Of a DNA stretch of 64,000 nucleotides, positions 40,486 through 59,926 are shown one piece after another. Position 1 is the stretch's first letter. Every line of letters begins with the position of its first letter. This stretch comes from Plasmopara viticola. Taxonomy: Eukaryota > Oomycota > Peronosporomycetes > Peronosporales > Peronosporaceae. The position numbers and the translations under genes are program-made. The notes under the pieces are model-generated. The model saw only the letters and a program-made list of their open reading frames with translations, was not told where the DNA came from and did not search any database. The stretch lies in NCBI GenBank assembly GCA_001695595.3, contig MBPM02000058.1:310001-374000 (forward strand). The letters are read 5' to 3'.

Positions 40486-41583
40486 ATGCTAGCTCGACAG
40501 GTAAGTTCCACGAGCGCCAGTATAGTATCGCTCTTTCACTAATGATTACATGCTCGGTCTCTCAACTCTAATATGCTTGCTGTTTCGCCATCATTACGCT
40601 CACAGTTTATTCGCCGCGTCGCCCTGCACACCCCACGCAGCGCAGCCATGTCCACGCTGGTGGTGGCTGAGCACAATTTATCGCAAATCTCTGGGCCTAC
40701 GTTGGCTACAGTTACAGCTGCCACGCAAATTGGTGGCGATATTACACTGCTGGTGTTAGGCAGCCAGGCCGGTCCAGCCGCCGAAGCTGCCGCCAAGGTA
40801 GCTGGTGTCAAGAACGTCTTGCACGCTGCTGACCCCAAGTATGACCATTATGTGGCCGAAGAGGTGACTGAGTTATTGATAGCCGCTCAGAAGACTAACA
40901 ACTACACCCACGTGCTGGCGCCCAGCTCCAATGCTAGCAAAAACTATCTGCCTCGCACGGGAGCTAAGCTTGACGTGGCTCCAATTTCCGACATTTTGGC
41001 TGTCATTGACAAAGACACGTTTCTTCGTCCCATGTATGCTGGCAATGCGATCGCCCAGATCAAATCCAAAGACGCCTTAAAGCTCATTACAGTGCGTCCT
41101 ACGGGATTTGAAAAGGCTGCTGCTGAAGGTGGCAGCGCGTCGGTAAGTCCGGCTCCGGAACCGTCTACGGTTGGCAAGTCGTCTTTTGTTTCAGAAGAAG
41201 TGAGCAAGTCGGAGCGTCCCGATTTGGCCGCGGCCCGCGTGGTTGTCTCAGGTGGTCGCGGTCTTAAAAATGGCGAGAACTTTGAAATGCTCTATAAACT
41301 GGCCGATAAGCTCGGTGGAGCCGTCGGTGCTTCGCGTGCTGCAGTGGATGCTGGTTTTGTACCGAATGAGCTGCAAGTCGGTCAGACGGGCAAAGTCGTG
41401 GCTCCTGAGCTGTACGTTGCTGCTGGTATTTCTGGTGCAATTCAGCATTTGGCTGGCATGAAAGACAGCAAGACGATTGTGGCTATTAATAAGGACGAAG
41501 AAGCTCCGATCTTCCAGGTGGCCGACTATGGACTTGTTGACGATCTGTTCAAAGTCGTGCCGGAACTTACGGAAAAGATCTAA
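40486..41583 (+). CDS. ETFA: Electron transfer flavoprotein subunit alpha
   Basis: Mitochondrial matrix ETF alpha accepts electrons from acyl-CoA and other dehydrogenases and passes them to ETF-quinone oxidoreductase. The product has a basic N-terminus (mitochondrial presequence) before [10 protein letters not shown], then the alpha/beta domain. The C-terminal FAD domain has [37 protein letters not shown] and [15 protein letters not shown] prefer a spliced start: exon 40486-40500 (5 codons), intron 40501-40605 (GTAAGT...CACAG, with CTAAT upstream of the acceptor), exon 40606-41583, giving 330 aa. An unspliced start at 40573 is in frame and would give 336 aa with a different first 11 residues. 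All FAD-binding motifs are present. Confidence 0.95.
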
Positions 41584-41765: not shown

Positions 41766-43361
41766 ACATCATCGCTATCTCTGAGGGTTTTTAGGGGTAC
41801 CCTCGTTGCTCTCATATGGGATGGTTGAGCGGATGTTGAGCGGACGACGAGCGGAGAAGACGGACTGACATTCAAACATTCTGGGACAAGACGACAAAGA
41901 AACACGAGCGTTGCATTCTCCGAAACGGGGACTCATACTCGTCACCTGCAGTAGCAACGCGCCGTGCGTCCAATGGAGCTGTCGCTGCGACAGACGCGAC
42001 GTCAATGACTTCTCTGCTATCCAGCATCTATCGCATCAACGCTGCTCTGGAAGCTGCAGTGGCACAGCCTCCACCGCCGCCCGGTACATTGCGTGTGTGC
42101 CACGCAACGGAAGATGACTGGAACGCTTTTGCTGACAGCGAGGATCAAATCGTTCGACCTAATTTTCTCGAATGGTTCGCTGACACGGAAGAGATCCACA
42201 TCATCGAGTTTGCGGGAACTCCCCACGAAGATTACCTTCAGGAGCTAAACGATCAATTTCGTGAGCGGCATGTCAAAAAATGGCTCAAAGGCCACATGGC
42301 CGCCGTGAATCCTCAGGGGCGACGGTGGTGTCCAGACCTCAGTTATGGACCACGCCAGACAACACCGGGCTCCGTGCTTCCACCAGATGTTACAAGATTT
42401 GACGATTTTCGGACGATTAAAGTCGAAGTTGGCGTCTCTCAGCCGTGGGGGATGGCACAAGGACAACTCGACCACAAGGCGATATCAATATGGGCTATGA
42501 TGCCAGGAGTTGAGTACGTGCTGTGTGTAAAGTTCGATCCCGACTTTGCGAATCCCGAATACAAATTGTACGATGCTCGCGTCAATCCACTCGTGCAGCT
42601 GGCTCCACTTCCAATTGTTGCTCCAAGTACGGTGATCCAGTTGGACGGACGTCGAATCCTTGGTATTCCGCCAGGGATGGCGCTCCCGGTAGGTTTTCCG
42701 GCAATTCTGTCGGTGGATTTGTGCTCTTCATTGGTCTGGGCAATGCGTTAATCAGACATCCAGCGCAGCAACTACTGAGTGATCTGATTGGATATAAATA
42801 ATCATAAATTCATGTGAGATTACCTCCGTAGAAGACCGGTTTGTTTACCGGTATGGACCGGACTCTTTTGTCACATTGCACAGTGACTCCAGGTGCGAAT
42901 ACTGCGTGAGTATTTTGTTCTAAAATTCACAAATTTTTATCAAAAAAATACCACCGTTGTCACATCTCTTGAATTTGTGGGTATGTGAGCATTAAAAAAA
43001 GGTATTTTCAAGCCACTCCATACATTTACAATAATATTTTATGGTAGGTCCTAGACCCCTTTATGGTTTGTCTATCCCAATCCTCACATACTCACATACT
43101 CACGAATATTCACTAATGGTATCTATCGACATGTTCTATTTGAAAGCTTTGTGAGCATTTTGCTATTACTCACACTTTCATCTAACATCTATCTCCTATT
43201 GATATTAGATGAACCAAACCTTGTCTCGGTCATTGTTTCGTGCAAGGCAAGACTTTTAAGGACATACTCGACACATTTAACATAAATACAAGTCATATGA
43301 TCCACACGCTAATGTGACTTTAGCTGGAGCTCCAGAGTGTGACGTCATAGAAACGATGATC
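41766..43361 (+). repeat. Left terminal inverted repeat of the PLV
   Basis: Inverted copy of 58195-56781. The outer tip reads ACATCAT then TCTCTGAGGG. It contains the intact Uma2-like nuclease gene and a further about 600 bp of non-coding DNA. About 150 bp (around 42815-42950) have no partner on the right side, so the arms differ in length. Confidence 0.92.
42005..42751 (+). CDS. Uma2-like PD-(D/E)XK nuclease (left TIR copy)
   Basis: An intact 248-aa frame inside the TIR. Residues about 45-75 resemble the N-terminal strand-helix of Uma2/DUF820 proteins. The core has PDLSYGPR (Asp about 111), IKVEVGVSQPW (Glu about 140) and LDHKAISIWAMMPGVEYVLCVK (Lys about 158), the D...E-x-x-S...K pattern of this restriction-nuclease-fold family, followed by the final VxYxL strand. 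It has no signal peptide. The start is the first ATG after the TIR leader. It is the only PLV-borne gene without a visible break. Location in the TIR means the complete element would carry two copies. A role in excision, genome maintenance or host interference is possible but unproven. Confidence 0.72.
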   Translation: MTSLLSSIYRINAALEAAVAQPPPPPGTLRVCHATEDDWNAFADSEDQIVRPNFLEWFADTEEIHIIEFAGTPHEDYLQELNDQFRERHVKKWLKGHMAAVNPQGRRWCPDLSYGPRQTTPGSVLPPDVTRFDDFRTIKVEVGVSQPWGMAQGQLDHKAISIWAMMPGVEYVLCVKFDPDFANPEYKLYDARVNPLVQLAPLPIVAPSTVIQLDGRRILGIPPGMALPVGFPAILSVDLCSSLVWAMR

Positions 43362-43469
43362 CTTTCTTAATACTAAGAGCGCAACTGCGCAAGTGATGCT
43401 ATTTCAACGATGCACACTTTGGCGGGTTTTGCTGATGCGATCGTAGTCGTCCAAGGTAATTCTTGACTC

Positions 43470-43839
43470 AGCTACATCTGACGTTGCTTTGGGAATTGGT
43501 TGAGAGTAGTAATCATCGTCGATCTAAATCGGCTGTGGTTCTTGTGAGTCTATATACTGGACATCCATTGCGTGGCTCTGCGTATATTACAAGGGAAGAT
43601 AATGAGAATTACAACTCAATCTCACTACAGCCAACATCTACCATGATGAGCTGACCGTATTTGAATAGGCGCTACCCGGCAGATCAAACGATCTACTCTC
43701 AGAATAAATGCATTTCGATGTGGATCGTATGATGTGAAACGACACCACAAAGCTTCTCCCTGGGCAAACACTTTTACAGAGATCCGTCGTTAGTATCGTA
43801 ATCACCGATTCCTTTGTAGTCCAAATTTGTGAGATCCAT
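43470..43839 (-). pseudogene. Unassigned broken minus-strand frame
   Basis: Starting with an ATG at 43839, a short readable stretch (MDLTNLDYKGIGDYDTNDGS) is followed by further readable pieces in other frames down to about 43470. It lies just downstream of the protease. It may be a small PLV gene, but no motif is recognisable. Confidence 0.3.
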
Positions 43840-43859
43840 GTCTATATTGATGCGATTGA

Positions 43860-44228
43860 TCAAAAATTATCATAATGATCTTTGAAGAGTTTGTAGAACT
43901 TGTCTAATTGATTGTGTTGCAGATAGTAGAGCTAAAGAACACTATACTGCCCACAGTTTCCAAATCGAGGCTTGTGTATTTCAACTTCACGACAAGAATA
44001 ATCCTTTAGTATCACACGTGGCCTAGGTAAGCCGAGAAAATCAAAGTACGCCTTATGCTTGTTTGATACTGCTATCCAATGATACCGCCGATCTGAGGCG
44101 TTCCTATGTTCAGAATACAATAATCTTTGCTTCTATTAAATTGCTGCTTGCAATCAAAGGAAATTAGCGAGTTTCATGAGTTGATTATCCGTCGTTCTAG
44201 ACAATTTAATAATTCTTTTCTCGCTCAT
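43860..44228 (-). pseudogene. Adenain-like capsid maturation protease
   Basis: About 122 codons from an ATG at 44228. The readable core (44120-43932) has the order His-Trp (YHWIAV), a YFDFLG segment and a GNCGQYSV motif. This matches the adenovirus-type Ulp1-fold cysteine protease that in PLVs and Polintons cleaves capsid proteins. The presumed His and Cys (in NCGQY) remain. A TAG stop follows shortly after the Cys and two frame changes lie upstream. It is divergent from the capsid gene, with 58 bp between starts. Confidence 0.68.
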
Positions 44229-44286
44229 GGCGCTTGATTTTTTGATCAGTATAATATAATCGTCATCTATTTAATCACACGAAAAT

Positions 44287-45998
44287 ATGTCGTCTGCATC
44301 TGATTTTTCTGCTTTGAGCATTCCGTCGAACCAGCTCCTGCTGAGATACTCTTCCGTGATAAGAAATAAACATATATTCAGGAATCAGCGTCCAATACCG
44401 GTCAGTATGCCGGACAAATCCAATTTAATCTCGCAAGGATCTCTTCGCAAGCTGCATATGTCAATTGAGAAGAAGCCGTCATCGAGCTTCCAGCAAAACT
44501 TCAAATTCTCAATGGCGGTGCAGGTTCGGTCACTTCGACTGCTGCCTGTACTGTGGATCAATCGATTCGAAGACCGGTGCGTGGCAGTTCATTGACAGTG
44601 TTCAGGTTGTCATTGATGGAACCACCGTACAAACGAATCAAGTTCATGAGAATGTGAATACAACGTTCAAGGCTATCACTGAAACGGACTATAATACGTC
44701 TGTGAATCATGGATCAACGAGCAACTTTGTCTTGAATGAGAATTCCACTCCAACGATCCAAGGGTCAAGCGGAGCGGCACAATCACTCGAAAACTTGTCC
44801 ACTTTGTCGTTTATGACCGTCATTTTAGTTTAGCTAATGACTACCCGAACCGTGGAGCCGCCGAACAATCGCTTTTTACCGCTCTTGATCAACAAGTACG
44901 AAGCTTGCATCTGATGTGATGGGAGGCAGTGCAAATCTCCAAGCCGTATCGAAACCTCAAGTCTTCGAGGCTCCTGCTGCTGGTGCCGTTGCTGCTGGTT
45001 CGCCATTTTACGTCGCTCATTATTTGGCTTGCATTAAATTGCGGGGTATCTGTGACTATTTCAAGAAATGCCCAATGCAGAAGAACAGGCGCGGTTTTAT
45101 TTACCTCAATTACAATAGCTCATTTACTACTTTGGTTACGAGTGGTAGTGCAGGTGTTGTTGCGCCTGCCACCATTGCTAGTTTGAGCAATAATATGAAT
45201 TTTGGTAACACCTGCCCAGTGCTTTGAATTTATAGCAGTGGTACAACAACTATTACTTTGGCCGGTGGTCTTGCGCTCCCTGCATCTGCTGTAACTTTAA
45301 CGATTACCGCCGATGTTAATGGTACTCGCACTGCCGAAACTAGTATCACTCCTTCGCAATCGATTTTCGCGTCTTCTCGTTCCAACTTACTCGCCCAACC
45401 CAAACGCCAATCATGCATTGGCTCAGAAAAAAACCTTTTGTTACTTTAAACGAATTACGAATAAATTCACTGTTGTGCCGGGCGCTTCATTCTCTTGGAC
45501 AGTCAGTAATGGCATTGCTGATTCAAACCGCTCGATCATGCAACCTGTTATTACCAATCCAACCGCAGGTGCTACCGTATCGGACTTAATCAATCCTCTC
45601 CGTAGTCCATTTTCGACTGTACCTGCTACGACAAGTCCATTTGCTGTATTAAAAAATATACAAGTTACCGTAGGAAACGTCGTTGTTTGGATCAATCCGA
45701 TTAGTTTTGGATATGATCTGTTCGTGCAAGATAGTCGAAGTCGGGTGTTGATGGTGGTCTTGATGATGTCACGTCGGCTGGTTTGCTATCTCAGCGTCAA
45801 TAATCGCTTTACCGATTTGTTGCTGTTGATATTGGTCGCCGCCTTCCAAGTGAAGACGGTGCCAGTAAGAGTATCATTGTGTCCAGTACTTCCCACAGTA
45901 ACTACGCCCTAACGATTTATTACAATGGATTGCGTGAAGTCGTTGCAACCGTTGATACGGCTATGGGTACGGTCTCCCAAGGTCCTGTTCAAAGCTGA
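44287..45998 (+). pseudogene. PLV major capsid protein (double jelly roll)
   Basis: About 570 codons in several frames. Readable blocks in order are NTGQYAGQIQFNLA (near 44395), FIDSVQVVIDGTTVQTNQ (near 44600), FKKCPMQKN-GFIYLNYNS (near 45060-45115), FTVVPGASFSWTVSNGIA (near 45470), RSIMQPVITNPTAG (near 45530), DLINPLRSPFSTVPATTSPF (near 45590) and DGGLDDVTSAGLLSQ (near 45755), ending GTVSQGPVQS. These blocks and their spacing are those of PLV/virophage-type major capsid proteins. There are at least four frame changes and in-frame stops at 44367 and 44466, so no capsid can be made. Confidence 0.8.
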
Positions 45999-46079
45999 TT
46001 TTGACAACTTCGTTATGTAATTCTATCTAACCACACATTTAAATCATCTTCAATATACGTGACCTTATCAAAATCAATC

Positions 46080-46525
46080 ATGACTGACTTTTTCTTCGAT
46101 GATCCGACAAAGCAAAAGGCATTTGATCGTTATAACAATGCAATGGCGAAGAGCGATTTCGTTCAAGAAAAGAAGCTGAAGGCGTTGATTCAACGCGAAA
46201 CATTAGACGATGCAAGCACCGACACACTTGCGAAATTGTTCCAGCAAGTGATGGGGAAGAATCGTAAGAATGAGTATGGTCAAATCACAAAAAAGCTATT
46301 GAAAGGTCCTAAAGGTCTACCTGAAATTATCAAAGGTGAAGCAAGTGATATTCCCAAATCTAGTAAGAAGAAGCATATATATACCCCACAAACAATCAAT
46401 ACAGATGCTAATATGAAAGAGTTCACTGCACCTGAAAAATCTTCAGTGGAGTAAATGATGTTGCGCAAAAGGTAGTCAATACTCGAGCATACATTAAAGG
46501 AAAAAGGCATCAAAAGAAGTGGTGA
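46080..46525 (+). pseudogene. Small Lys-rich PLV protein 1
   Basis: 124 codons are open from the ATG at 46080 (MTDFFFDDPTKQKAF) to 46454, charged and helical, with no known domain. The next about 25 codons (VNDVAQKVVNTRAYIKGK) read on in another frame to a stop at 46525, so one indel near 46445 shortens the protein. It follows the capsid gene by 81 bp in the same direction and could be a structural or DNA-packing protein. Confidence 0.5.
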
Positions 46526-46599
46526 ATGACCATGTTCTGAAATACCTAAACAAGTGTTGCGAGTTCCAAAGAGAGGATTCAAATTGAAGACGTCAAAAA

Positions 46600-47066
46600 A
46601 TGGCAGCAAAGTTTGCTGGTGAGGTCATGAAAGAATCAGTAAAGCTTATAAAACGAAAGCGAACTGCAACTACCCCAAATAAATCTCCCACTGACAAACG
46701 CGCGACGAAAAAAGGTGCTAAGCGAGTTGAGGAGGAACCTTCAATTACTCGGCAACTCTTTCAAGACTCGAATGTTGATAAAAGTAGTGATGACGAAGAC
46801 ATGAAAGAAGAGGAAAGATAACGCGGATTGAATGCTGGCATAAGAAAGTTTATTCTGACGATATCAACAGCTGCAAAAGTCAATTTGCAGCAAACTTATA
46901 CGTAAGTATTCGACATAGATTTGGCGAGGCTGTCGATCAGCGCAAAGGCAAAGACGATATTAAAGACAATGCTCCTAAACCACCAAGAATGCACAAAATG
47001 AAACGAGATGCTATAAATCAGTACAAAGCTGAAATGAAAGGCGGGCTAGATGACTTCTTTATCTAA
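46600..47066 (+). pseudogene. Small basic PLV protein 2
   Basis: The first 73 codons from 46600 are very basic, then acidic (KLIKRKRTAT, then SSDDEDMKEEER). A single frame change near 46815 leads to a second part ending MKRDAINQYKAEMKGGLDDF with a stop at 47066. No known domain. The last 21 bp overlap the end of the fibre gene on the other strand. Confidence 0.45.
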
Positions 47067-49264
47067 ATTGAATGCCACTATTTTTTTATTAGTCGATTCC
47101 AGTTGTTCGACACGATCAATTAGCTTCTTTATGATATTAACATTTATTATTGTTATAGCATTGTAATCTAAGCATAGTTGAACTGCTTACGGTGAGTTTT
47201 CACCTTCGTCTTTCAAATTTTGATATTCGATCATCTGAATTGCTTTTAAATAGACGCGCATAACATCTTGAGCTATCATAAAAATTACCGGTCTGAGATC
47301 CTTATAACGCTCAAATGGTGTATCGATTTTCTATATATTCTCCTATTCTCCTTCGATCGACGATCAGACGTAGCCCATATACCAGCTTGAATGTAAATAT
47401 TACCACCAAAAGAAGCTGATAGTAAAAGGTACGCCAATACGATTTGCCCACGAGTTAAACGCTACATCATAACTATACGAAATTGTGCTAACTGGTATAA
47501 TTGTGATAGATGAGTTAAACTCAACTACTTGCAAAGGGGTGTTTGGTGATCCGGTTCCGATACCTACTCTGCCGCTGTAACTGTTCGTGTATTTGAAGTA
47601 ATAAAAACAAATTGTTGGTAGAAGTACTTTCAAAATATGCACTGTTCGTCGAGGTTGCATTTGTTGCATTGCTCACTTGTAAGCCATAACCAATAGGTGA
47701 TGCGGTAGACGAATTTATGAAAATCGGCATGTCATAGTTAGCGGTTTCATCGTTGAGTGCATTAGAGGCTTAAATATAAATATTGCCAGAATTCAGTGTA
47801 ATCGGAGCTGTTCCAAACGAACTAGTGTATGGTGTGTTGGTGTTGAATACCATCTTATTAATAATGTCTGAAACAAGGTATAAACAAGCTAATTTAGGAG
47901 TTGGCGAAGAGCCAGCATCATTAAAAGCAAAAGCATCAGCACTTGTTGCTCATGTATAAGTATGAGGATTTCCAGTTTTATACGGCTGGGGATTGCCAAT
48001 ATTGAAGCAAATTTGTGCGTTTGAGACGTAAATCCCACAGTTGGTCTACCGTTCCATTTGATAGTAATTAAATCAGCGCTTGTAACAGAAACACCTCCAA
48101 CGAATGAGCTCGAATTATCCGTTGATATTGAACTTTGTTGTTTGTGACGAATGTGGTTCTTGAAGCGATGACCAATCCATTTGTATCAGTTACTTGATAA
48201 ATGTTCATAGTTTCACGGTTCACAGTTCCGCCGCTGCAGATTATTGGTCCTTGATGTTCCTAAAGGCATCAATTCGACACCTGAACTATCGAGTGTCATT
48301 GATTTTGATGCTTGAAATGTACCCAGAGTTGTTAAATTATTGTAATTTAGTTCATTAGCATCAGCTGTCATAATGAGTTCATTAATGTTCAATGTAGAAT
48401 AGCTAAGATTCAATATCGAGCTTCTAGCTCCATTATCTCCAGTTATTTTATTACAAGTAAGAGAAGGCGAAGCAACTGATACTGAAGCAAAAAAAATTCT
48501 TGTGATAGATAAATTACGAAGACCACAATAGTCAAGAATTGAATTTATTACAACCGCTTTTGACGCCACGGCCCCACCAAGAGTAATCCCAGTGTAGTAA
48601 GTACCGGGAAATGTAATTCCTTTAAACGTTAAATTTGCAACATTTAGACCCGTTCCAATTGAACCTAAATCTAATTGTAATCCAGAAATTGTATCAGCAA
48701 TAGTGATATTCCCACTTAATGAGATAGTCATTCTGGCCGTGTTGTTAGATGCAATTACAGTATTATGATTAGACTGTATCCCAATCCAACCATTAGTTGC
48801 AAGTCCGCATCGAACACTTTCATTTGCAACTTGTATCCCCCATGTGTTTGGATTGGCATTAACTAATACAGAATTTGCTAAAATTAGCGTTTTGTAAAGC
48901 ATTGACTGTAAGAGTTGCCAAACTTCCAATCGACTTAATGTTTGGCTGAGTTGCTGTTTGAATTGTGGTTACTGATGCCACTAATGTTGCTGCTTAAATC
49001 AAGAACAAGCAATTTGCTTGCACTGGCAACAGCACCAGGAGTCACTCCATAAAGGTAACCAAGGCCAGACAGATCTAAACTGGATCCGTTAATAGCCAGT
49101 GATCCACAATTCATATTGCCGATCACATTTAAAGCAGAGAGCGATCCTACTCCGCCAAGTTTCAAATATCTTTGATCAGCTGTACTTAAAGTAAGGTAGT
49201 CATTAGTTGAGTTGAAGAAAGAGCTATTGGAGAGAGGAGAATTAATAATCAGAGGGAGAGACAT
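47046..49264 (-). pseudogene. Fibre/spike protein with S74-type chaperone tail
   Basis: About 739 codons. The start at 49264 gives MSLPLIINSPLSNSS and then LTTADQRYL-like and LYGVTPG-ASASKLLVLD blocks, typical of giant-virus and PLV fibres. A long beta-rich Ser/Thr/Asn section follows (48929-48213). Near 47380-47340 a GIWATSDRRSKEN motif appears, with Ser (47368-47366) and Lys (47353-47351) placed as in the peptidase S74 intramolecular chaperone dyad. A final LDYNAITIINVNIIKKLIDR coiled coil ends the frame. Several frame changes break it. The product would trimerise and clip itself to form a virion fibre. Confidence 0.7.
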
Positions 49265-49285
49265 TTTTGATCACTAAACTATAAG

Positions 49286-49755
49286 ATGCAAAATTTCTAC
49301 GAATCCATACCGAAGTTAAAGCTGGAAAAACTCCAAAGAACGATCACTTGAGTTGCCATTTCGCATGTGCGTGGCCTCTCCTAGTGGATCAGGGAAGTCG
49401 AATACTGTTTTCTTCGAAAGTGCCCTTCTATGCAAATGCTTTACCAAGATCGTCATATGCACAAAAACAAATGAAGCTCTTTCCGATCATCTTCAAGACA
49501 CAATCGACAACTTCGAGGTGATAGAGGGAGAAATAGTCCCAGCAATGAGTGAACACGATTCTGAGAATAGCACGTTGATAAGTTTTGATGACTTGGTCAT
49601 GGAACCAAAAAGAATTCAAGCCCAGATCTCACAGTATTTCATCCGGGGACGGAGCAAGGCTGGTCAATAATTTACATTTCACTGAATTACTTCGGAGTTC
49701 CAAAAACGATTTGAAACAACTCTCAGTGGGATCATATTTTGATCGAGAAAAGACA
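49286..49755 (+). pseudogene. A32/FtsK-type DNA packaging ATPase
   Basis: The ATG at 49286 gives about 20 residues before a frame change near 49345. An open block then follows at 49353-49670 with Walker A PSGSGKS (near 49380), KIVICTKTNEAL, Walker B LISFDDLVME (near 49575) and ISQYFIRGRSKAG. In a further frame WSIIYISLNYFGVPKTI (near 49660-49710) matches the sensor-like segment of the family. The usual C-terminal about 100 residues are missing because the sequence runs into the penton gene. Its start lies only 21 bp from the fibre start on the opposite strand. Confidence 0.75.
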
Positions 49756-50491
49756 AAGTCAATTCCGGATTAGTACCCTGCATTAGGCAATAGGCTAACC
49801 CCTGACCGTGTGACGTTGTAATTAAGCCGCCATACTCAACCCCAGCAGAAGAAAATGTGTGCAATACGTGATTATTATTTGCAATTAGATTGTACAGATT
49901 CGAACAAGTGATAACAACTGCGGCGGCCGGATCGATTTGAGGAATTAGATTACTTTTAACACTAGTTGTCTGAGCGGCGGGATATGTAGCTGGACTGAAC
50001 ACAATGATAGAACCAAATGAGGAATCGACTACCTGGAGCTGAGGTGTATAAGCACCGACTGGCATTGTAGGAAAGCCACTTGCAGCAGTGTAGCCTGTGA
50101 TATTCTTGACTGGTTGCATTGTTAATTGAATAGCGTAACTCGTTGGGTTCTCAACACATGAGATGAAATTTTAGTTTGATCCGGTCGTATTGTTTGTCAA
50201 ATAGAGATTGTTTTGGATAGACCAATATTAAAGGTAGTTGTTGATGTCGCTTGTCAAGTATGTGCCATCAGGAAGCGTATTTGTGTATGTCGTTGTCGTC
50301 GAAGCTGTCGACTGTATGGTCTTAAGGCTGTTGTTTTGACGCTGCACAGTAATTGCTCGCCAGGAGTAGTAGATGGATATTGATCAAAATGCTATTTCAT
50401 GCTGACTGAAGTCGATTGGCTGCGAAAATCGATATCGGAATTGATAAGTAGCCACCTGGTTATTGAGACTTATTAAAATCGGAAAGCTCAT
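49679..50491 (-). pseudogene. PLV penton (minor capsid) protein
   Basis: A single reading frame of about 270 codons from ATG 50491 to a stop at 49679, interrupted only by stops at codons 36 (TGA, 50386-50384), 88 and 107. Readable blocks are NQVATYQFRYRFSQPIDFSQ, DGTYLTSDINNYL and ENPTSYAIQLTM, then GSIIVFSPATYPAA, NLYNLIANNNHVLHTFSSAG and LSFLDQNMIPLRV, the pattern of a single-jelly-roll penton of PLVs. The last about 12 codons look foreign because the frame runs antisense through ATPase DNA. Confidence 0.68.
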
Positions 50492-50528
50492 ATTAGTAAC
50501 TAGTATATATTAACCAAAAGAAAGAAAA

Positions 50529-50940
50529 ATGCATCGACGAAAGAGAATTCGACGACGATAGATGCTCCAAGCAATGGAGATCAATGGATCAGGCGAAGTG
50601 GATCACTCGAAACCTGTAGCTTCATCCAAAAATGACTTTGGTTCAACAAATATTGAGACAATCTCCAATCTACTTCAGAAAATCAGCGTTAGTCATCTTG
50701 CCAAGGAGCAAAGAAAGACGAACAAGCCTCGTTATATTGATACTTCAATTTTGTGTCGAGCGTAATATCTTGGTCTTCGATCACGATCATTGTGATAAAG
50801 ATGCTGATATGCCTTCGGTGGCGTTCGGTCCTTATATTGAGCTTAACAAGAATCACCGAATTCGAATATTTTCACCATTACTGAGTATCACTCGATACTT
50901 CTTATTCTTTTTTGGTGAGAGCATTCATGACTTAATGTAA
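50529..50940 (+). pseudogene. Small PLV protein with basic N-terminus
   Basis: Starts MHRRKRIRRR, followed at once by a TAG stop (50559-50561). The same frame continues to 50765, then a frame change leads to LVFDHDHCDKDADMPSVAFG and a hydrophobic end at 50940. About 137 codons. The Arg-rich start could bind DNA or serve as a nuclear signal. Its start is 37 bp from the penton start on the other strand. Confidence 0.4.
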
Positions 50941-50986
50941 AGCATCGTATATATAAGCTCAAGATTGTTTATTGAGTCTAAGAGAG

Positions 50987-51324
50987 CTAAAGCTTCATCA
51001 CACGCTTAGATTGACTGTAGTATGAGGTCGAAAACACATTTTTCATATAAAGCTTGTCCAAAATGGACTTTATCTCAATTTTGATTGATGAATTGTCGTC
51101 TCGGATTTGATTAACACCTTCAAGCACCTTTAAGCGTTTTACGAGACCATCAAGAAGCTGATTATACGCACTTTCAAACTCTTGTAGAGTAATTTTACAC
51201 TTATTCAAGCAATACAGCATGAAATCAAGTTCCTGCTCGTCTAAAAGATCAAACAGGGCTTATTGAACTGCCTATCTTCTCTTATCAACCACCAGAGATC
51301 TACGAATGCACGAGAGACAAGCAT
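50987..51324 (-). pseudogene. Small helical PLV protein
   Basis: The ATG at 51324 opens about 22 codons (MLVSRAFVDLWWLIREDRQF). After a frame change the remaining 78 codons from near 51260 to 50987 are open and helical (LVKRLKVLEGVNQIRDDN). No known domain. One indel separates the two parts. Confidence 0.4.
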
Positions 51325-51335
51325 TGTATTGATTT

Positions 51336-52770
51336 TTACTTGTATTTGTCACTTCGTAAGCAAGCTTGAAGTCCATAGAATTTCACACGGAATGGACCAG
51401 CGTTACGGTATGGTCTTTTTTGTTTTTGCTCCATGATCGCTTTGTATGTTATAGCAAATAAACTATTTCTCGTAGATATCAATCTCAAGTGTTTTGTCGC
51501 TACTAGAAGGAGTGAAACATGGAGTATGCGTTCCCGACGGTCTCTAGGTCTGGTTGGAGTCTTTGCAGCAGGCTTTGCAACAGTTGGCTCAAACGATGTC
51601 TCTGATTTAAAGGATGTATCTGGCTCATATGATGCATTTTGCTTGGATGCATATGATCGATTTGCGATTTCGTTACAGCTCGTGTTAGCAGCCTTGGTGC
51701 TGTGGAGTAGCTGAGCATGTAAATCATTCTTCTCGCGATTGGTGAGCTTAGTATATGTTGGAGATTGGATTAAATGAGTCTCAGCAATGTGTCGAATCAC
51801 ATTCATTGAAATTGCTTTTCTGCTGTGCTTTATGAACAACTTAGATATGATATGACTGAAGCTATTGCTCGAACTTGTATAATCGTACTCACCTGGCTGT
51901 CTGTCGAAAATGCGCCACAGGAGATTGCTAGGTTGCTCTCCAACCGTGTTAGTCAAGAACTCAAGAAACGATTTGATCAAGCTCATCGTAGTACCCCATG
52001 AGCCAAACATTCTTGAGATCATTCAATTATGAGACGTTCCCTTGAAGATAATTAGCACCTTCCTCAGGGGTAAGCACGACACTTGGCCATACCAAACAAA
52101 GTATATAATGCACGTTCAAAAACAACATAATGTACTCAAACGCGAGCTTCACGTAATCAGTCTTCTCAGCTTTGGCCAACTGCTCAAACTCTGATCGAGA
52201 AAAAAAATATTTTACCATACCTTTCGTTGAGCACCTTTGCGACTATACCAGGGACAAACATAAGCTCTTCATAGCTGATGTATTTCGTCTCTTCCTCAAT
52301 GGTCAGTTCGTTATCCAGCTTTGCAGCCTTGTTTTGCTTACTCAGTTCCTTTTGAATCGTTAGTATTTAAATGTATCCCGATATCTGTCCTTGACCATTC
52401 TACACATGGCATTCAATGTTAGAATCAGACTCTCTTTGCTCGTATAGATGCTCATCAGAAGCGCTATGATACTCGAAATCTGTTACTTTAATGTCTTTTG
52501 AAACGTCACGTCGTTGTATCTGTTTGGATAGTGAATACTGGTGATGAAATCATTTGGAGACCATTGCTCTTTTGCAATCCCCGCTTTGTAAAGCTTGATC
52601 AGTTGCATAGTATACAACTTAGTCGTAGTGTCCGTTGGATTGTCCTGATCACTTCCTAGATTAATATCACGAGTAATAATATTTTTGATCTCATCCAGAC
52701 TGAGTGTTTTAGGTTTAGTAACCTTTGATATTTTTGTCTCTCGCTTTGTATATAAGTAATCTGGATATTC
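51336..52770 (-). pseudogene. PLV tyrosine recombinase
   Basis: Readable parts run from about 52750 down to 51336: a SAM-like core-binding domain (KTLSLDEIKNII and LYKAGIAKEQWSP, about 52700-52400), a linker (LDNELTIEEETKYISYEEL, near 52300) and the catalytic domain. In the last open block (52022-51336) residues 77-78 are Arg-His in SMNVIRHIAETHLI, and His 107 lies in LLHST. Nine residues later, where the nucleophilic Tyr should be, the codon is TGT for Cys (51677-51675). Frame changes and stops occur near 52450, 52370, 52220 and 52025. It would have integrated the virus; this copy cannot. Confidence 0.65.
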
Positions 52771-52777
52771 AATTTAA

Positions 52778-53219
52778 ATGTACAAGGAACTTGCCGTCGG
52801 GTTATTAAAGTCTTACACGGCAAGCCCGTTAGTTTGAGCCATTCTCAATTAGATAAGGGCCATACGCCTTATTTTCAGCCTGAGAACTACAAGAAGCTAG
52901 TGAAGGCCTTAAAATCGGGCAAGAGGACGACGTTACATATGTCTCACGGAGAAGTGCCCCAAACGCATCAGTCGGGACTTAGTGGCTCTAGCTTTTGGGG
53001 AAACTTGTGAAATAGAATCAAATCAAATGCAAAAGGTATCGGTATCTTTCTAAAAGATAATGGAAGCCAATCGCCTCTGGCCTCCTCGCTGGTATTGCCA
53101 CCGCGGCCGAACCCGAAGCTACTCCATTGCGTGGTCTAGTCAAATCAGACAGTGGTGTAGGCATGGCACCTTCCATGACTCGTCGTCGTACTAAGGGGTG
53201 GAGCTTCCGACTTGGATAA
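52778..53219 (+). pseudogene. Capsid-associated PLV protein
   Basis: About 147 codons from the ATG at 52778 to a stop at 53219, in three frames. Blocks are VLHGKPVSLSHSQLDKGH, KKLVKALKSGKRTTLHMSHG and SGLSGSSFWGNL, then a TGA stop, NRIKSNAKGIGIFLKDNG, and an Arg-rich end (APSMTRRRTKGWSFRLG). The Gly-Ser-Phe-Trp plus amphipathic helix resembles the membrane-active minor capsid proteins of PLVs and adenoviruses. This is inference. It is divergent from the recombinase with almost no gap. Confidence 0.45.
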
Positions 53220-53270
53220 CTTTGGTTATGTTTGATTTTGATATATAAATTTACAAATTTCACAATAGTC

Positions 53271-53800
53271 ATGATCGGTTCAGTTTATAAAATCGTTTGT
53301 CGTCAAAGCGACATTTGCTATGTTGGTAGCATATTCAACCTACTCAAACATCGTATGAATGGGCATCGGTCTAAGTTCAAGCATTGGGATGAAGGAAAAT
53401 CAACAAGTGAAATTGCAATCTTTCCATACTTTTGAAAGTATGACCCATACGAGAGTTAAATGTTGATCAAGCAGTATGAGGTTGCCGATGAATCTCAGCT
53501 TCGTGTTTATGAAACGTTATGCATCAACAAATCCAAGAAAACTTGCGTCGATAAGGTTCCTCCATTTGCACTACTGAAAACGGCAAAGCAACAAGAGAAT
53601 ACAAGATTGTACTGGGAAGCCAATTAAGAAGTGCTCAATGTAAAAACGAGCACTACAACGAGTTTCAAAAAGAGAGATTTGTCAAGAAGGTTACATGTGA
53701 ATGTGGCGGTCATTACCAATATAGAGGCAGAACGTGTTACTTCAATCAAAGAAGCGTATCAGATGGGTGGAAGCACAGTAGATCCGGCAATTCTGATAGC
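53271..53800 (+). pseudogene. GIY-YIG endonuclease with Cys-rich tail
   Basis: The first 118 codons are in one frame with two stops (TGA and TAA near 53433-53460). The start has VYKIVC...CYVGS, the GIY...YIG core, followed by LKHRMNGHRSKF with the expected Arg. ADESQLRVYETLCIN carries a plausible catalytic Glu. After a frame change at about 53625, AQCKNEHYNEFQKERF and KKVTCECGGHYQYRGRTCYF give a small zinc-binding tail, as seen in nucleases of large DNA viruses. Confidence 0.65.
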
Positions 53801-53886
53801 GCAATCTATTTTTTGTCTCTGCATACGATTACACGTCATCAATCATTCTATACGAGAAGGTGATATTTTAAATAACATGATATTTT

Positions 53887-56730
53887 GATCGATTATGGCG
53901 GTTGTACTTATCACAACATCCTTTTATGTGCTTTATGCGACAGCTCTTACAAATATTCAGCTTTTTTTCTACAAACCTCGTATCAACAAGCATCAAATTT
54001 GAGATATTGATCGTATCTTTTGGCGTTTGCTGCATTTCACATCGTTCCTTGTATACGCTTTCAGGGCCTTATTCAATTGAAAAACGCTGATAGAAGCACC
54101 TTCTTCGTATGTACAATTCTCGGAGATAATATGATAGGTGTTGTTGGTAGCCATACAAAAATTTTGCGTTTTTCAACGAATGAGACCGGATAGATTGATT
54201 CAACTCTTTTGTTCTTATATTTGGAATAAAAATTCAAATAGATTGACCGACAGCGGTGTAGAAAAACGTCAAATTTTTGATCTTTGATCTCATTCTCAAG
54301 ATTTGTGTTCTTCCTTTCTTCAGAGCGACCATGAAACGACGACTCACTTCCCCTGACTCATCCTTGTATGTTTGTAGCTTGTTGCTTTAAAATAGCTCCA
54401 ATTTTCCAATCAGGCACAATAACTGAACGCTGTTTTCCTTTTACCGGACATGAAATGCATATGACACCATGCTGTGAAGTCCTAATTAATTTGGATGTTA
54501 CGATCTTGGGCATCAATGTGATCATTGCAGACGGCAAGAAATTGCGTGGTAAAAAGATTGTTAAGCTGACTGGGATGGACGGTAAGCTCATCAGGATGCT
54601 AGATGTTATGTACATTACAGGACACGATAGACGGCTGCTATCGGTCAGAAAATTTACGGAACAAGGTCTACGTGTGAAGTTTCAGCAATTTTCATGTGTT
54701 CTCTGGGGCAAGAATAAGGCTTTAGCTCAGGGCAAAAGGTCGATAACTACCTCAAGAAATCATCCTTTGGTAAAGTCTTAGCAAGATTGTCCATATCATT
54801 ACAAAATAATACTTGTTTTTGATAATATTCTTCTAATTTAAATTGCTCTTGATGAGAGTTAGCAACTTAATCAGAAGCAAATGAATACTTAAGAAGGTTC
54901 ATCAATCACGATTTACCTGATCCACCTTCACCATAAAGCAATACCATGAAATCAAATTTGTCATATAGCCTAGTCATTAGGCGACCAATCGTAATAGTCT
55001 CGTCATCGAATTGAACTTGAGATATTGATCAAGTAGCGGAGCAAAGTCAGTATTGAGCTCAAACTCTGAGTCAATGTATCTTCGAACCTGAATATTCTCT
55101 GCAATATCAGCAGTCGAAACAAACGTGGCATTAAATAGATCGTAGATACCATTGTGGAATCCAATGTAGTTGTAATCTAGGTTAATCTACTCAAAGTCCG
55201 TGCTGATGATGTTTTTTGATGAAGTAAGGTAATTGCTGATGATCTTGCGACTTGCACATATGAAATAAAGGCTCATCAGCAAACACTACATTCAAGAACA
55301 CAGTCGGATCATCGTATTTGCCAACATAGTAATATAGAAGCGAATTTTCATAGATTGCTCCAGTCTGAAATTCACGCTTATACTTGTCTCTGACGTACTC
55401 CACCAGCTTCTCCTTAAAAATATATAATTGTCTTCTCTTTTCGTTATCTTCATTCTCTTCTTCAATTTCTTGTGGTTCATACTCCGCATTCCTCGTATCC
55501 ATCTTGATCGGTTCCTCCAACAATAGATTTAATTTAGAATCAGTTAGCTTGGGGTGATACTTGGATATTTCCCAGTCATTGAGCACTTTCAATGCAGCAG
55601 CTTGATCAATCGATCTGTCATTGTATAGAGAATGCACAAATATGTTTCCACATTAAACCAAGATCGATGTGTTGCTTGCGATATAGCACACCAGCCAAGT
55701 TCCAAGTATTATTGTTATCACAGTACCACGATCTCTTCATCATGCGACATAGTTTGTGTAGACGCTGATAGTAAAGTCCAATTGACACACAATATTCGAC
55801 AAAATTTAGTTTCTCATAAAGCCCTTAAAAGGCTTCTTTGTCCTCATCTGATTTAAAGTAGATACGATTACGCGAGATTACTTTGCCATCCTTTGATTTT
55901 CAAGTTGGTTTAGTGAGATATAACCCTGACTGAATAACACTTGTGGATCTGCATTCTAAATACTTTGATGATCGATTGGTATTTCCTTGACAAGTGAGCG
56001 CCAAGCATCGGTTACTTCAGAAAACATCAGAATGTCTTTATTCCCGTGCTCAAGTCCATAAGTATCCCAAGTAATGCCCTTAGCATCTGCATCAGTTCTA
56101 GTCGTGGCTTTCGGCTTGGCCTTACGCTCCTTCATTTTGCGCTCATACCGATCAACTATCAATGAATCACGCTTGAGTGTGCTTTCAATATAATTGCCTT
56201 AAGCACTTCTTTTTGTATTGTCCTCAAGGAATTTTCGCAAGACATCAATTTGTTGCTGTTCGAGGACAAGGCTCTTAGCTTCTGCAGACTCGTCACGATA
56301 TTCAAGGTAATTTACAGAAACGATAAGATATGCCCCTCAACTGCGACTCGGTCGGTTTAATGACCTCAGTAGCTGTCAAAGTCACTTCATTCTCATAATC
56401 GTCCAAATTATATATTTTTTTCGAATCTGATTGACATTCCTCCTTATATACCGCGCTATCCGCGATCACCAAATTGGCAATCGTCTCATCCACATTTGGA
56501 ACTTCACTTACTTTGACATTCGAGGCCTCGACGGGTTCGATCACCGATGGCGCTGGTGTATTAACAACCTCAGCGACGACTGGGGTATTGACTTGTGGTG
56601 ACATTTCTCCTACTATATTACTCTCCTCGACAATACTTTCCCGATCCATAATAATTGAATGCTTGCCGCAGCGACCCTTGTTGCGAGCTAGCAAACACTG
56701 TTCTCCGTTCTTTTTGATAAAGTTGTACAA
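53887..56730 (-). pseudogene. D5-type primase-SF3 helicase, interrupted
   Basis: About 850 codons plus an insert. The N-terminus (56730-56302) has a Cys/His cluster (CLLARNKGRCGKHS). Middle pieces include KKYDDPTV-like and FADEPLFHMC at 55637-55191, then IGFHNGIYDL (near 55150), the D5 N-domain signature. Walker A is GEGGSGKS (near 54920-54900) and the Walker B region QVLFCNDMDNLAKTLPKDDF lies near 54840-54780. After a foreign insert (about 54465-54750) the gene resumes with ISCPVKGK, DESGEVSRRFMV and HRCRSIYLNFYSKYKNKRV, and ends in a Cys-rich KSCRIKHIKGCCDKYNRH tail. Stops and frame changes are frequent. The enzyme would unwind DNA for virus replication. Confidence 0.78.
54465..54750 (+). 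mobile_element. Copia pol fragment inside the helicase gene
   Basis: On the plus strand this piece reads HMTP...VIIADGKKLRG, VKLTGMDGKLIRMLDVMYI and DRRLLSVRKFTEQGLRVKFQ. It matches the protease-to-integrase linker of the copia element at 7880-8170 of this window, with many substitutions. No LTR, gag or RT is attached. Helicase motifs continue directly on both sides, so it is an insert without the marks of normal retrotransposition. Confidence 0.8.
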
Positions 56731-56780
56731 TGTTATATCACTTAAGTTAACTTTTTATACTTTATATTTTCGTCGCTCTA

Positions 56781-58195
56781 GATCATACTTTTTAATGATG
56801 TCACACTCTGAAGCGTTCCAGCTAAAGTCATATCAGCGACTGGATCATATGACTTGTATTCATTGTTGAGTATGTCCGTAAAAGTCTTGCCTCGCACGAA
56901 ACAATGACCGAGACAAGGCTTGGTTCACATAATATCAATAGGAGATTGATTTTGGATGAGAAAGTGTGAATTATAGCAAAGTACTCACAAAACTTTTAAT
57001 TAGAACATGTCGATAGATCCTATAGTAACTTTACATCATTATTAAATATATGTGAGTATGTGAGTATGTGAGAATTGGGATAGATAAACCATAAAGGGAG
57101 ATATTGTAAATATATATAGATTGGCTAAAAGGGCCATTTCTTAATAATACTCACATACCCACAAATTCAAGAGATGTGACAACGGCCCTTCTCGTGGACA
57201 TGAATTTATGATTATTTATATCCAATCAGATCACTCGGTAGTTGCTGCGCTGGATGTCTAATTAACGCATTGCCCAGACCAATGGAGAGTACTAATTCAC
57301 CGACAGAACTGCCGGAAAACCTACCGGGAGCGCCATCCATGGCGAAATACCAAGAATTCGACGTCCGTCCGACTGGATCACCGTACTTGGAGCAACAATT
57401 GGAAGTGGAGCCAGCTGCACGAGTGGATTGACGCGAGCATCGTACAAGTTGTATTCGGGATTCGCAAAGTCGGGATCGAACTTTACACACAGCACGTACT
57501 CAACTCCTGGCATCATAGCCCATATTGATATCGCCTTGTGGTCGAGTTGTCCTTGTGCCATCCCACACGGCTGAAAGACGCCAACTTCGACTTTAATCGT
57601 CCGAGAATCGTCAAATCTTGGAACACCTGGTGGAAGCACGGAGCCCGGTGTTGTCTGGCGTGGTCTATAACTGAGGTCTAGACACCACCGTCGCCCCTGA
57701 GAATTTACGGTGGCCATGTGGCCCTTGAGCCATATTTTGACATGCCGCTCACGAAATTGATCGTTTAGCTCCTGAAGGTAATCTGGAAGAGATCCATTCA
57801 AAAAAATTGGGTCGAACGATTTGATCCTCGCTGTCAGCAAATGCGTTCCATTTACTTACCGTTGCGTGGCACACACGCAATGTACCGGTCGGCGGTGGAG
57901 GCTGTGCCACTGCAGCTTTAGAGCAGCGTTAATGCGATGGATGCTTGAGAGCAGAGAAGTCATTGACGCCGGTGTGACTGCGTCTGTCGCAGCGACGGCT
58001 TCATTAGACGCACGGCGACGTGTATGAGTCCCCGTCCTTAAAGAAAGGAACGCTCATGTTTCTTTGTCGTCTTGTCCTAGATTGTTTGAATGTCAGCTCG
58101 TCTTGTCCGCTCGTCGTCCGCTCAACATCCGTTCAACCATCCCGTATAAGAGCAACGAGGGCACCCCTAAACACCCTCAGAGACAGGCATGATGT
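56781..58195 (-). repeat. Right terminal inverted repeat of the PLV
   Basis: Inverted copy of 41766-43361 with many substitutions and indels. It ends TCTCTGAGGG then ACATCAT (read inwards). It holds the decayed nuclease copy and ends 50 bp from the helicase start. Confidence 0.92.
57292..57963 (-). pseudogene. Decayed Uma2-like nuclease (right TIR copy)
   Basis: Homologue of the gene at 42005. The ATG at 57963 is kept, but a 1-nt deletion soon after (near 57915), a change over the next codons and a deletion of about 45 bp near 57790 disrupt the first third. In the remaining 182-codon frame the motif Pro before the core Asp is Leu (LDLSYRPR) and VSQPW has become VFQPC. A premature stop at 57292 removes the last about 16 codons. 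The core Asp, Glu and Lys codons are still there. Confidence 0.75.
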
Positions 58196-58445: not shown

Positions 58446-59006
58446 CTACGCGGTAACTACAGGCACTGGAGTTGCACCAATCCGCGGGCTGCCTTGTTGA
58501 TCGAACGCTTCATCGTCTGGGTGCTGCCTTGGCCTGTCTTCACGTGACCCAATCATCGCCACGCCCAGAAAAGCAAGCGTTGAAAGCAGCGACGCCGCCA
58601 CCGCTAGATAGATGCTTCCACACCGCACAAAGCGATTGAAATTGCCGTGGCAATGCAGCGTCACGCCTGACAAGAGCAGGAAAAGCGATGCAGTCGCCAG
58701 AGCGACAAAAAAGACCAAATCCATCACTCGTTCACAATAGTGCACAGGGTGAACGCACAGACGTAGCCACTCGATAAAGACCAAAAAGGCAAAGGCGTAG
58801 ACAAACGCCAAGAAGTTGACAATCCGCGCAAAGCTCATGGCACTGCTACTCACGACGACCGCAACAGTTTGGCCTCCTGCCGTATTCTGATACGATACAC
58901 CAGCGGTACGCAGCGCGATATACGCGACAAGTGAGCAACAAAATTGGATCAGACGAAGCAGAACGCGCGTCCAGAACCGACAGAAACGACCTGGACATGA
59001 CGCCAT
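58446..59006 (-). CDS. Four-TM membrane protein A
   Basis: The 186-aa product has four predicted membrane helices (about residues 14-34, 55-82, 93-118 and 128-152), short loops and a polar C-terminal tail. The topology is MARVEL/tetraspan-like and no catalytic motif is seen. ATG 59006 is the first in frame and directly precedes a Cys/Arg-rich cytosolic start. The downstream neighbour at 59186 has the same length, topology and order of helices, so the two are tandem paralogues on the same strand. Confidence 0.72.
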   Translation of the reverse strand: MASCPGRFCRFWTRVLLRLIQFCCSLVAYIALRTAGVSYQNTAGGQTVAVVVSSSAMSFARIVNFLAFVYAFAFLVFIEWLRLCVHPVHYCERVMDLVFFVALATASLFLLLSGVTLHCHGNFNRFVRCGSIYLAVAASLLSTLAFLGVAMIGSREDRPRQHPDDEAFDQQGSPRIGATPVPVVTA

Positions 59007-59185
59007 GCTTCACCTTGTGTAGCTGTTTGAGAACTGCCATTGCTCCACTTGATCAACTTCTGTGAGACCTGCGGTGGTCTCGTTTCCACGAAAATACCAA
59101 GCAAAGAGCAATAAAAGAGCTTGTTTATTTCTTAGAAACTGCTTAAAAGGTGGTATAAACTTTGCTATCCTTCTTCTTTAACCTC

Positions 59186-59758
59186 TTAGACGCGGCTCGA
59201 TGCGTCTTTGGGAGTTGAATTGCCAGTGGGCGTCGATTCAACTTGATAGCCACCACCACGTCCCGCTTCCTCCGAGTCGCTCCCAATGTGGTGACGCGAT
59301 TCCATAAAGTTTTCACAACAGTCGAGCAAGAACGTCACAAAGTACGAAAAGGACGCGAGAAACGTAAACACGACTGCAGTCTTCAACTCATTGCAGCGTA
59401 GCATGTAGCCGTAGATAGAGCAATGCGCCACATAATCCGAGACCACGAGTACAATTCCAGCGACAACCAGCAAAGCAGCCAAAAGCAGGTCGATGAGCTG
59501 TTCAAACAGGTGCGACGACGGACGTGGAAAGAAACGCATGAGTTCCATAAAGAGCAACGAGAAGAGTCCCACCACCATCCCCGTATAAGTCATTAACGTC
59601 GCATAAGTCGCTGCTCGGCTACCCAACATACTCGAGTAGCCATAATACGATGCTCCCACAAATGCACGCGATAGCGTGGCCAGTGCCACGAGAGACAATG
59701 CAAAGTTTAAAAAGCGAAGCAGAGCTCGACCCCAGCGCATGGAATTGCCGCGTGCCAT
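59186..59758 (-). CDS. Four-TM membrane protein B, paralogue of A
   Basis: 190 aa from ATG 59758 (MARGNSMRWG). Membrane helices lie at about residues 11-33, 53-78, 88-109 and 124-148, followed by an acidic, Ser/Thr-rich tail (SDSEEAGRGGG). The frame is open for 22 more codons upstream, but without an ATG. Conserved features with protein A include the Trp-x-Arg-x-LLR start of helix 1, an ExxR pair after helix 2 and Cys-His/Cys residues in the last loop. Role unknown, probably plasma or vesicle membrane. Confidence 0.72.
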   Translation of the reverse strand: MARGNSMRWGRALLRFLNFALSLVALATLSRAFVGASYYGYSSMLGSRAATYATLMTYTGMVVGLFSLLFMELMRFFPRPSSHLFEQLIDLLLAALLVVAGIVLVVSDYVAHCSIYGYMLRCNELKTAVVFTFLASFSYFVTFLLDCCENFMESRHHIGSDSEEAGRGGGYQVESTPTGNSTPKDASSRV

Positions 59759-59926
59759 TGTTGTACTGACTAGAGATGAAATGCCTGCGAGTAAGCCGTT
59801 GTCTTTTGAAAAATGGCAATCCAAGGTTGTGAGAATTCAAAGAGCGAGGATCCGGGACGAGGGCTTGCGATCAAACCGTTGCAAAGACTGAGGATAACTG
59901 GGAATGTTCTATTGAAATTTACAGCT

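Follow-up and report, generated by a model that had tools for sequence, protein, structure and literature searches.

A 16.4-kb element at positions 41766-58195 of a 64,000-nucleotide stretch of the Plasmopara viticola genome (contig MBPM02000058.1 of assembly GCA_001695595.3; this whole stretch is called the window) is very probably an integrated, since decayed Polinton-like virus (PLV) of the oomycete-associated, Gossevirus-like group. The original prediction, made from the letters of the DNA, had placed a decayed PLV between an ETF-alpha gene and a membrane gene, and it proved right in substance, being supported by the ends, the gene set, the flanks and collinear copies at other loci. The other genomic copies and a gene inside the inverted ends were not mentioned there, and the novelty it implied was overstated. 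In fact, the presence of Gossevirus-group PLVs in oomycetes was published in 2021 (PMC7805220), and a 2023 study counted as many as 299 capsid copies in a single oomycete genome (PMC10120064; citations here and below refer to the available portions of these texts), so that the element adds one member to a published group and not a new kind. Direct observation covers the ends, the greater part of the gene set, the gene order common to the copies, the related elements and the decayed state of the genes. With its clear boundaries, the element enlarges the fossil record of small DNA viruses in the downy mildews and related organisms.

Terminal repeats and gene content

Ten inverted blocks pair the two arms, whose alignment scores 1953.5 (at most 4.0 in 20 shuffles). 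In the global alignment 101 of the 1357 columns differ (7.4%; 63 transitions and 38 transversions), and 44 bases of the left arm, in two pieces, are missing from the right. The prediction would have failed had the ends proved an assembly artefact; they are not a simple one, since collinear copies occupy other loci and the two arms are 7.4% divergent. The predicted boundaries are where arm matching begins, and other copies likewise start with ACATCATCGC. Moreover, a 20-base end motif has 65 + 49 occurrences at up to 3 mismatches in the genome searched (92,937,831 bases in 358 contigs, numbered C13, C14 and so on, with C58 as the element's own), compared with 0 + 0 for the control. The AT-richer interior of the original prediction was also recovered, G+C being 37-44% across the 43-57 kb interior and 47-50% in 1-kb windows over the arms.

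All assignable genes between the ends are interrupted or truncated (Table 1), and Pfam and PHROGs searches of the window's own short pieces brought no match above cut-off for the capsid, ATPase, protease or recombinase. Identification was made through less broken paralogues on other contigs, placed on the window by tblastn. In this way, the predicted packaging ATPase, adenain-like protease and fibre were confirmed. The C13 paralogue of the ATPase, 72% identical to the window piece at 49.3-49.7 kb, passes Pox_A32 with 28.5 bits (cut-off 22.8), the window's own piece reaching only 12.5 bits; the C13 paralogue of the protease exceeds the Peptidase_C5 cut-off (23.0 against 21.3 bits), with the C31 paralogue below it at 15.3 and no match from the window piece; and the C66 paralogue of the fibre ends in an S74-type chaperone (Peptidase_S74, 53.2 against 22 bits), no S74 match being obtained from the window's own fibre frames.

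Modelling supports the view that the capsid gene codes for a double-jelly-roll major capsid protein, as predicted: a low-confidence model of the C-terminal half of its homologue, which leaves out the N-terminal jelly roll, ranks double-jelly-roll capsids first. The sequence-profile match that had also been expected of the 44.3-46.0 kb region was not found, neither to PDB sequences at E <= 1 nor to any Pfam profile. P. infestans proteins are among the database homologues of the capsid piece, and PMC7805220 puts the P. infestans capsid in the Gossevirus protein cluster. The presumed penton gene, named from position and motif, is conserved and collinear among copies and has 47 database homologues, but no profile recognises this identity (no Pfam match, and nothing at E <= 1 for its profile against PDB sequences).

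Similarly, the predicted tyrosine recombinase corresponds to a broken gene homologous to a C60 frame, but neither Pfam nor PDB nor NCBIfam gives a match to support the family name, which we assume from motifs and position. The D5/SF3 helicase is suggested by weak matches which are in order but below cut-off, to D5_N (E=0.0096, about 55106-55261) and to VapE-like (E=0.017, about 54780-54959). For the GIY-YIG nuclease a weak match was obtained on the window piece (17.8 bits, below the 22.6 cut-off), but the C60 paralogue gives no GIY-YIG match. In six-frame Pfam scans of 43301-56802, with X at stops, D5_N, VapE-like and Pol_BBD were the sole matches apart from chance rows. Polymerase B and an rve (DDE) integrase, which the original prediction had not found, were not detected by these scans either, a weak test since the ATPase, protease and S74 domain were also missed; in addition, none of the 40 genome matches of PF03175 (polymerase B) lies on C58, C13, C14 or C61. 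The predicted flanks were borne out by Pfam matches to ETF_alpha and MARVEL, and the open frame at 58446-59009, nearer than the MARVEL gene, has no Pfam match.

Table 1. Features of the element and its flanks (window coordinates)
Feature	Position	Strand	Basis
ETF-alpha gene, left neighbour, open	40546..41583	+	ETF and ETF_alpha above cut-off (ETF_alpha E=9.9e-37)
Left terminal inverted repeat	41766..43341	+	inverted blocks; ~1.57 kb
Open 303-aa frame inside left end, conserved oomycete protein, putatively nuclease-like by motif	41840..42751	+	61 database homologues, 86 genome matches
Adenain-like cysteine protease remnant	43935..44132	-	C13 paralogue; 71 genome matches
Major capsid protein gene, broken	44313..45906	+	five collinear tblastn pieces, 64-83% identity to C66 frame, 3 stops; fold matches of homologue
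Broken gene downstream of capsid gene, no function assigned	46321..46716	+	55% identity to C66 frame, 4 stops
Fibre gene, broken	47154..49264	-	tblastn pieces, 5 stops in C-terminal part
A32-type packaging ATPase gene, broken	49271..49729	+	three pieces in more than one frame
Presumed penton / minor capsid gene, broken	49709..50509	-	77% identity to C60 frame, 3 stops
Broken conserved gene, no function assigned	50460..50753	+	74% identity to C66 frame, 2 stops
Broken conserved gene, no function assigned	50990..51443	-	79% identity to C60 frame, two pieces
Presumed tyrosine recombinase gene, broken	51433..52731	-	60-79% identity to 449-aa C60 frame, 7 stops
Broken conserved gene, no function assigned	52798..53216	+	52-74% identity to C13 frame
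Presumed GIY-YIG nuclease gene, broken	53262..53778	+	GIY-YIG E=0.004; matches C60 frame, 3 stops
Retrotransposon (Pol_BBD) fragment inside element	54335..54781	+	Pol_BBD 29.1 against 27 bits
Presumed D5-type primase-helicase gene, broken	54780..56117	-	tblastn to C31 frame, 6 stops; weak domain matches
Right terminal inverted repeat	56804..58195	-	inverted blocks; ~1.39 kb
Right-hand copy of end gene, broken	57265..58121	-	tblastn pieces with stops
MARVEL membrane gene, right side	59186..59836	-	MARVEL 39.8 against 32.8 bits cut-off (E=5.6e-10)

As regards the insertion site, 66 ends were examined; the terminus is intact in 43 of them, and the flanks are distinct in 27 of these 43. GT stands immediately outside the terminus in 21 of these 27 ends, and GTAC at -12 to -9 in six (at most two at any other tested offset), and therefore the functional end may extend about 12 bases further out. 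The flank comparison gave no convincing target-site duplication at the window copy. A common host palindrome was rejected as integration target, the exact 16-mer TGTACTATATAGTACA occurring at four places in the genome, all four at such ends.

In the living virus, a linear genome some 16.4 kb long, bounded by inverted ends of 1.4-1.6 kb, would have been copied by a D5-type primase-helicase. An A32-type ATPase would have packaged it into a capsid of the double-jelly-roll type, matured by an adenain-like protease and bearing fibres. A tyrosine recombinase acting at the ends may have brought the genome into the chromosome between the ETF-alpha and membrane-protein genes, stops and frame changes then accumulating in the assignable viral genes. 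Replication, integration and particle formation are thus what we infer for the ancestral virus; the element itself has no evident present-day function.

Copies, a second lineage and alternative explanations

The gene order of the element recurs at other loci. Protease, capsid, ATPase, penton, recombinase, helicase and right end lie 2.2, 3.5, 7.6, 7.9, 10.7, 13.4 and 16.4 kb from the left end in the window, and 2.1, 3.6, 7.6, 8.3, 10.9, 13.9 and 16.4 kb on C13. C14 follows C13 from protease to recombinase (2.3, 3.7, 7.7, 8.3 and 10.9 kb), with its right end at 16.2 kb, and C61 is the mirror image of that order over 16.6 kb, no helicase match being found on the C14 and C61 elements among the matches listed. 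Single-piece genome matches, which count pieces and not element copies, amount to 74 for the recombinase, 81 for the ATPase, 71 for the protease, 36 for the helicase and 86 for the end gene, with at least 150 for the penton (150 of 196 candidates scored) and at least 154 for the capsid (150 of 231 scored). When the window was compared with other copies, the ratio of non-synonymous to synonymous substitution rates (dN/dS), rough on account of frame breaks, was 0.10-0.38 for the penton (6 of 8 pairs, dS being saturated in the other two) and 0.15-0.51 for the capsid (7 of 7 pairs), from which we read a lineage that was probably constrained in its evolution between insertions and whose individual copies decayed once inserted. 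In IMG/VR, scans with the penton, capsid, end gene and ATPase as queries yielded no confirmed relative.

Two further arrangements were observed among the copies. On C38, two very similar elements (403981-419517 and 478023-493551) stand 74 kb apart, with left flanks identical over the 40 compared bases and right flanks which resemble them inversely. At C72:316822-331090, an inverted viral end abuts the element on both flanks, as if two copies had been joined head to head.

It was less expected that the same genome also holds polymerase B. Several of the 40 PF03175 matches are pieces of one gene; 26 of them lie within 8 kb of a typed penton hit (46 of the 150 penton matches were typed), mostly about 5.4 kb away, and the penton beside them is of a divergent type (30-41% identity) in 25 cases and at 58% in one. 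The polymerase frames are often long and open. One genome thus holds two PLV lineages with homologous pentons, one with a presumed helicase and recombinase and the other, better preserved, with polymerase B. Their coexistence opens module exchange and lineage turnover to testing. The polymerase-B lineage with the divergent penton was seen on C41, C80, C123, C156, C226, C254, C277 and other contigs.

Of the known systems, the Gossevirus (GKS1) group resembles the element in host group, inverted ends, capsid, ATPase and cysteine protease (PMC7805220, PMC10120064). Oomycete elements of both configurations are described in PMC7805220, five of them with a helicase-primase and a tyrosine recombinase replacing polymerase B and rve, the plan presumed for the window element. 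Virophages (Sputnik, mavirus) are likewise small DNA elements that code for a capsid, an ATPase and a cysteine protease, and the Sputnik capsid is among the fold matches of the modelled capsid homologue; nevertheless, the capsid profile has no sequence match to any solved structure. A classical Maverick/Polinton transposon, its polymerase B and rve integrase decayed or deleted, would share the inverted ends and morphogenesis genes (capsid, ATPase, protease). This origin would agree with the polymerase-B elements with related pentons in the same genome, with the two configurations reported in oomycetes (PMC7805220) and with the insensitivity of six-frame scans on such decayed DNA. We regard it as highly unlikely, however, in view of the same-length collinear elements on C13, C14 and C61, also without PF03175 matches, of the C13 helicase piece at the same place as the window's, and of an interior already occupied by conserved pieces. 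The element further differs from Maverick/Polintons in having no clear target-site duplication and no detected polymerase B or rve integrase, although decayed genes can escape the scans.

That the element is an intact one, its stops being long-read assembly errors, is extremely improbable. Stops in such elements can indeed be assembly artefacts (PMC10120064), and PacBio reads were used for the assembly (PMC9130769), but errors of this kind fit poorly with arms that differ by 7.4% in both transitions and transversions, one of them lacking the 44 bases, with end-gene cores in which 3 codons differ synonymously and 19 non-synonymously, or with a retrotransposon piece inside the element. Furthermore, the neighbouring ETF-alpha frame is open, and the polymerase-B lineage of the same assembly has long open frames. 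A decayed PLV of the Gossevirus-like group is the reading that we retain.

The gene inside the inverted ends

Less expected, and the residual surprise of this element, are the gene borne by its ends and the short derivatives which keep those ends. Homologues of this gene (Phytophthora, Aphanomyces and Lagenidium where the source is named) in some cases carry database names beginning 'Restriction endonuclease dom'. The elements on C75, C14 and C61 also carry the gene at both of their ends. A conserved stretch, E-x-G-x-S-Q ... D-x-K-A ... GVEY, may point to Uma2-type PD-(D/E)XK nucleases, a likeness confirmed by no tool: the gene has no Pfam, PDB or NCBIfam match, its profile finds nothing among PDB sequences at E <= 1, and its structure model (predicted local distance difference test, pLDDT, 42.5) is too poor for a fold search.

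Against nine copies of its own clade the end gene shows dN/dS of 0.34-0.48, the comparisons of the right with the left C14 copy and of C14 with C61 having been set aside for a wrongly oriented frame. The codon differences between the two cores within the window (3 synonymous and 19 non-synonymous of 173) give no sign of selection since insertion. Arm divergence is K=0.106 outside the enclosed reading frame and 0.044 in the frame's core; the core (42229-42751 against the right arm) differs by 4.2% and the outside-frame parts by 9.8%. Gene conversion is one possible cause of the lower divergence in the core.

The short derivatives, on C71 (1.1 kb), C11 (2.6 kb) and C16 (1.7 kb), keep more or less intact ends and end-gene sequence, that on C71 with one open 265-aa frame, and no capsid match was found in them among the matches listed. 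A conserved, nuclease-like end gene might act on the ends, in processing or mobilisation, ends and gene together forming a small mobile unit, a proposal which we consider speculative and rather unlikely. In any case, the gene offers a concrete target for asking how viral ends are processed. The available portions of PMC7805220, PMC10120064, PMC12220804, PMC8204020 and PMC9130769, the first two of which describe the Gossevirus group, make no mention of such a gene within the inverted ends; its absence from print is not claimed. Finally, about two dozen end-gene matches at about 30% identity, many of them open frames near 290 aa, were observed at C10:793619-1096914, a stretch which also carries capsid and penton pieces.
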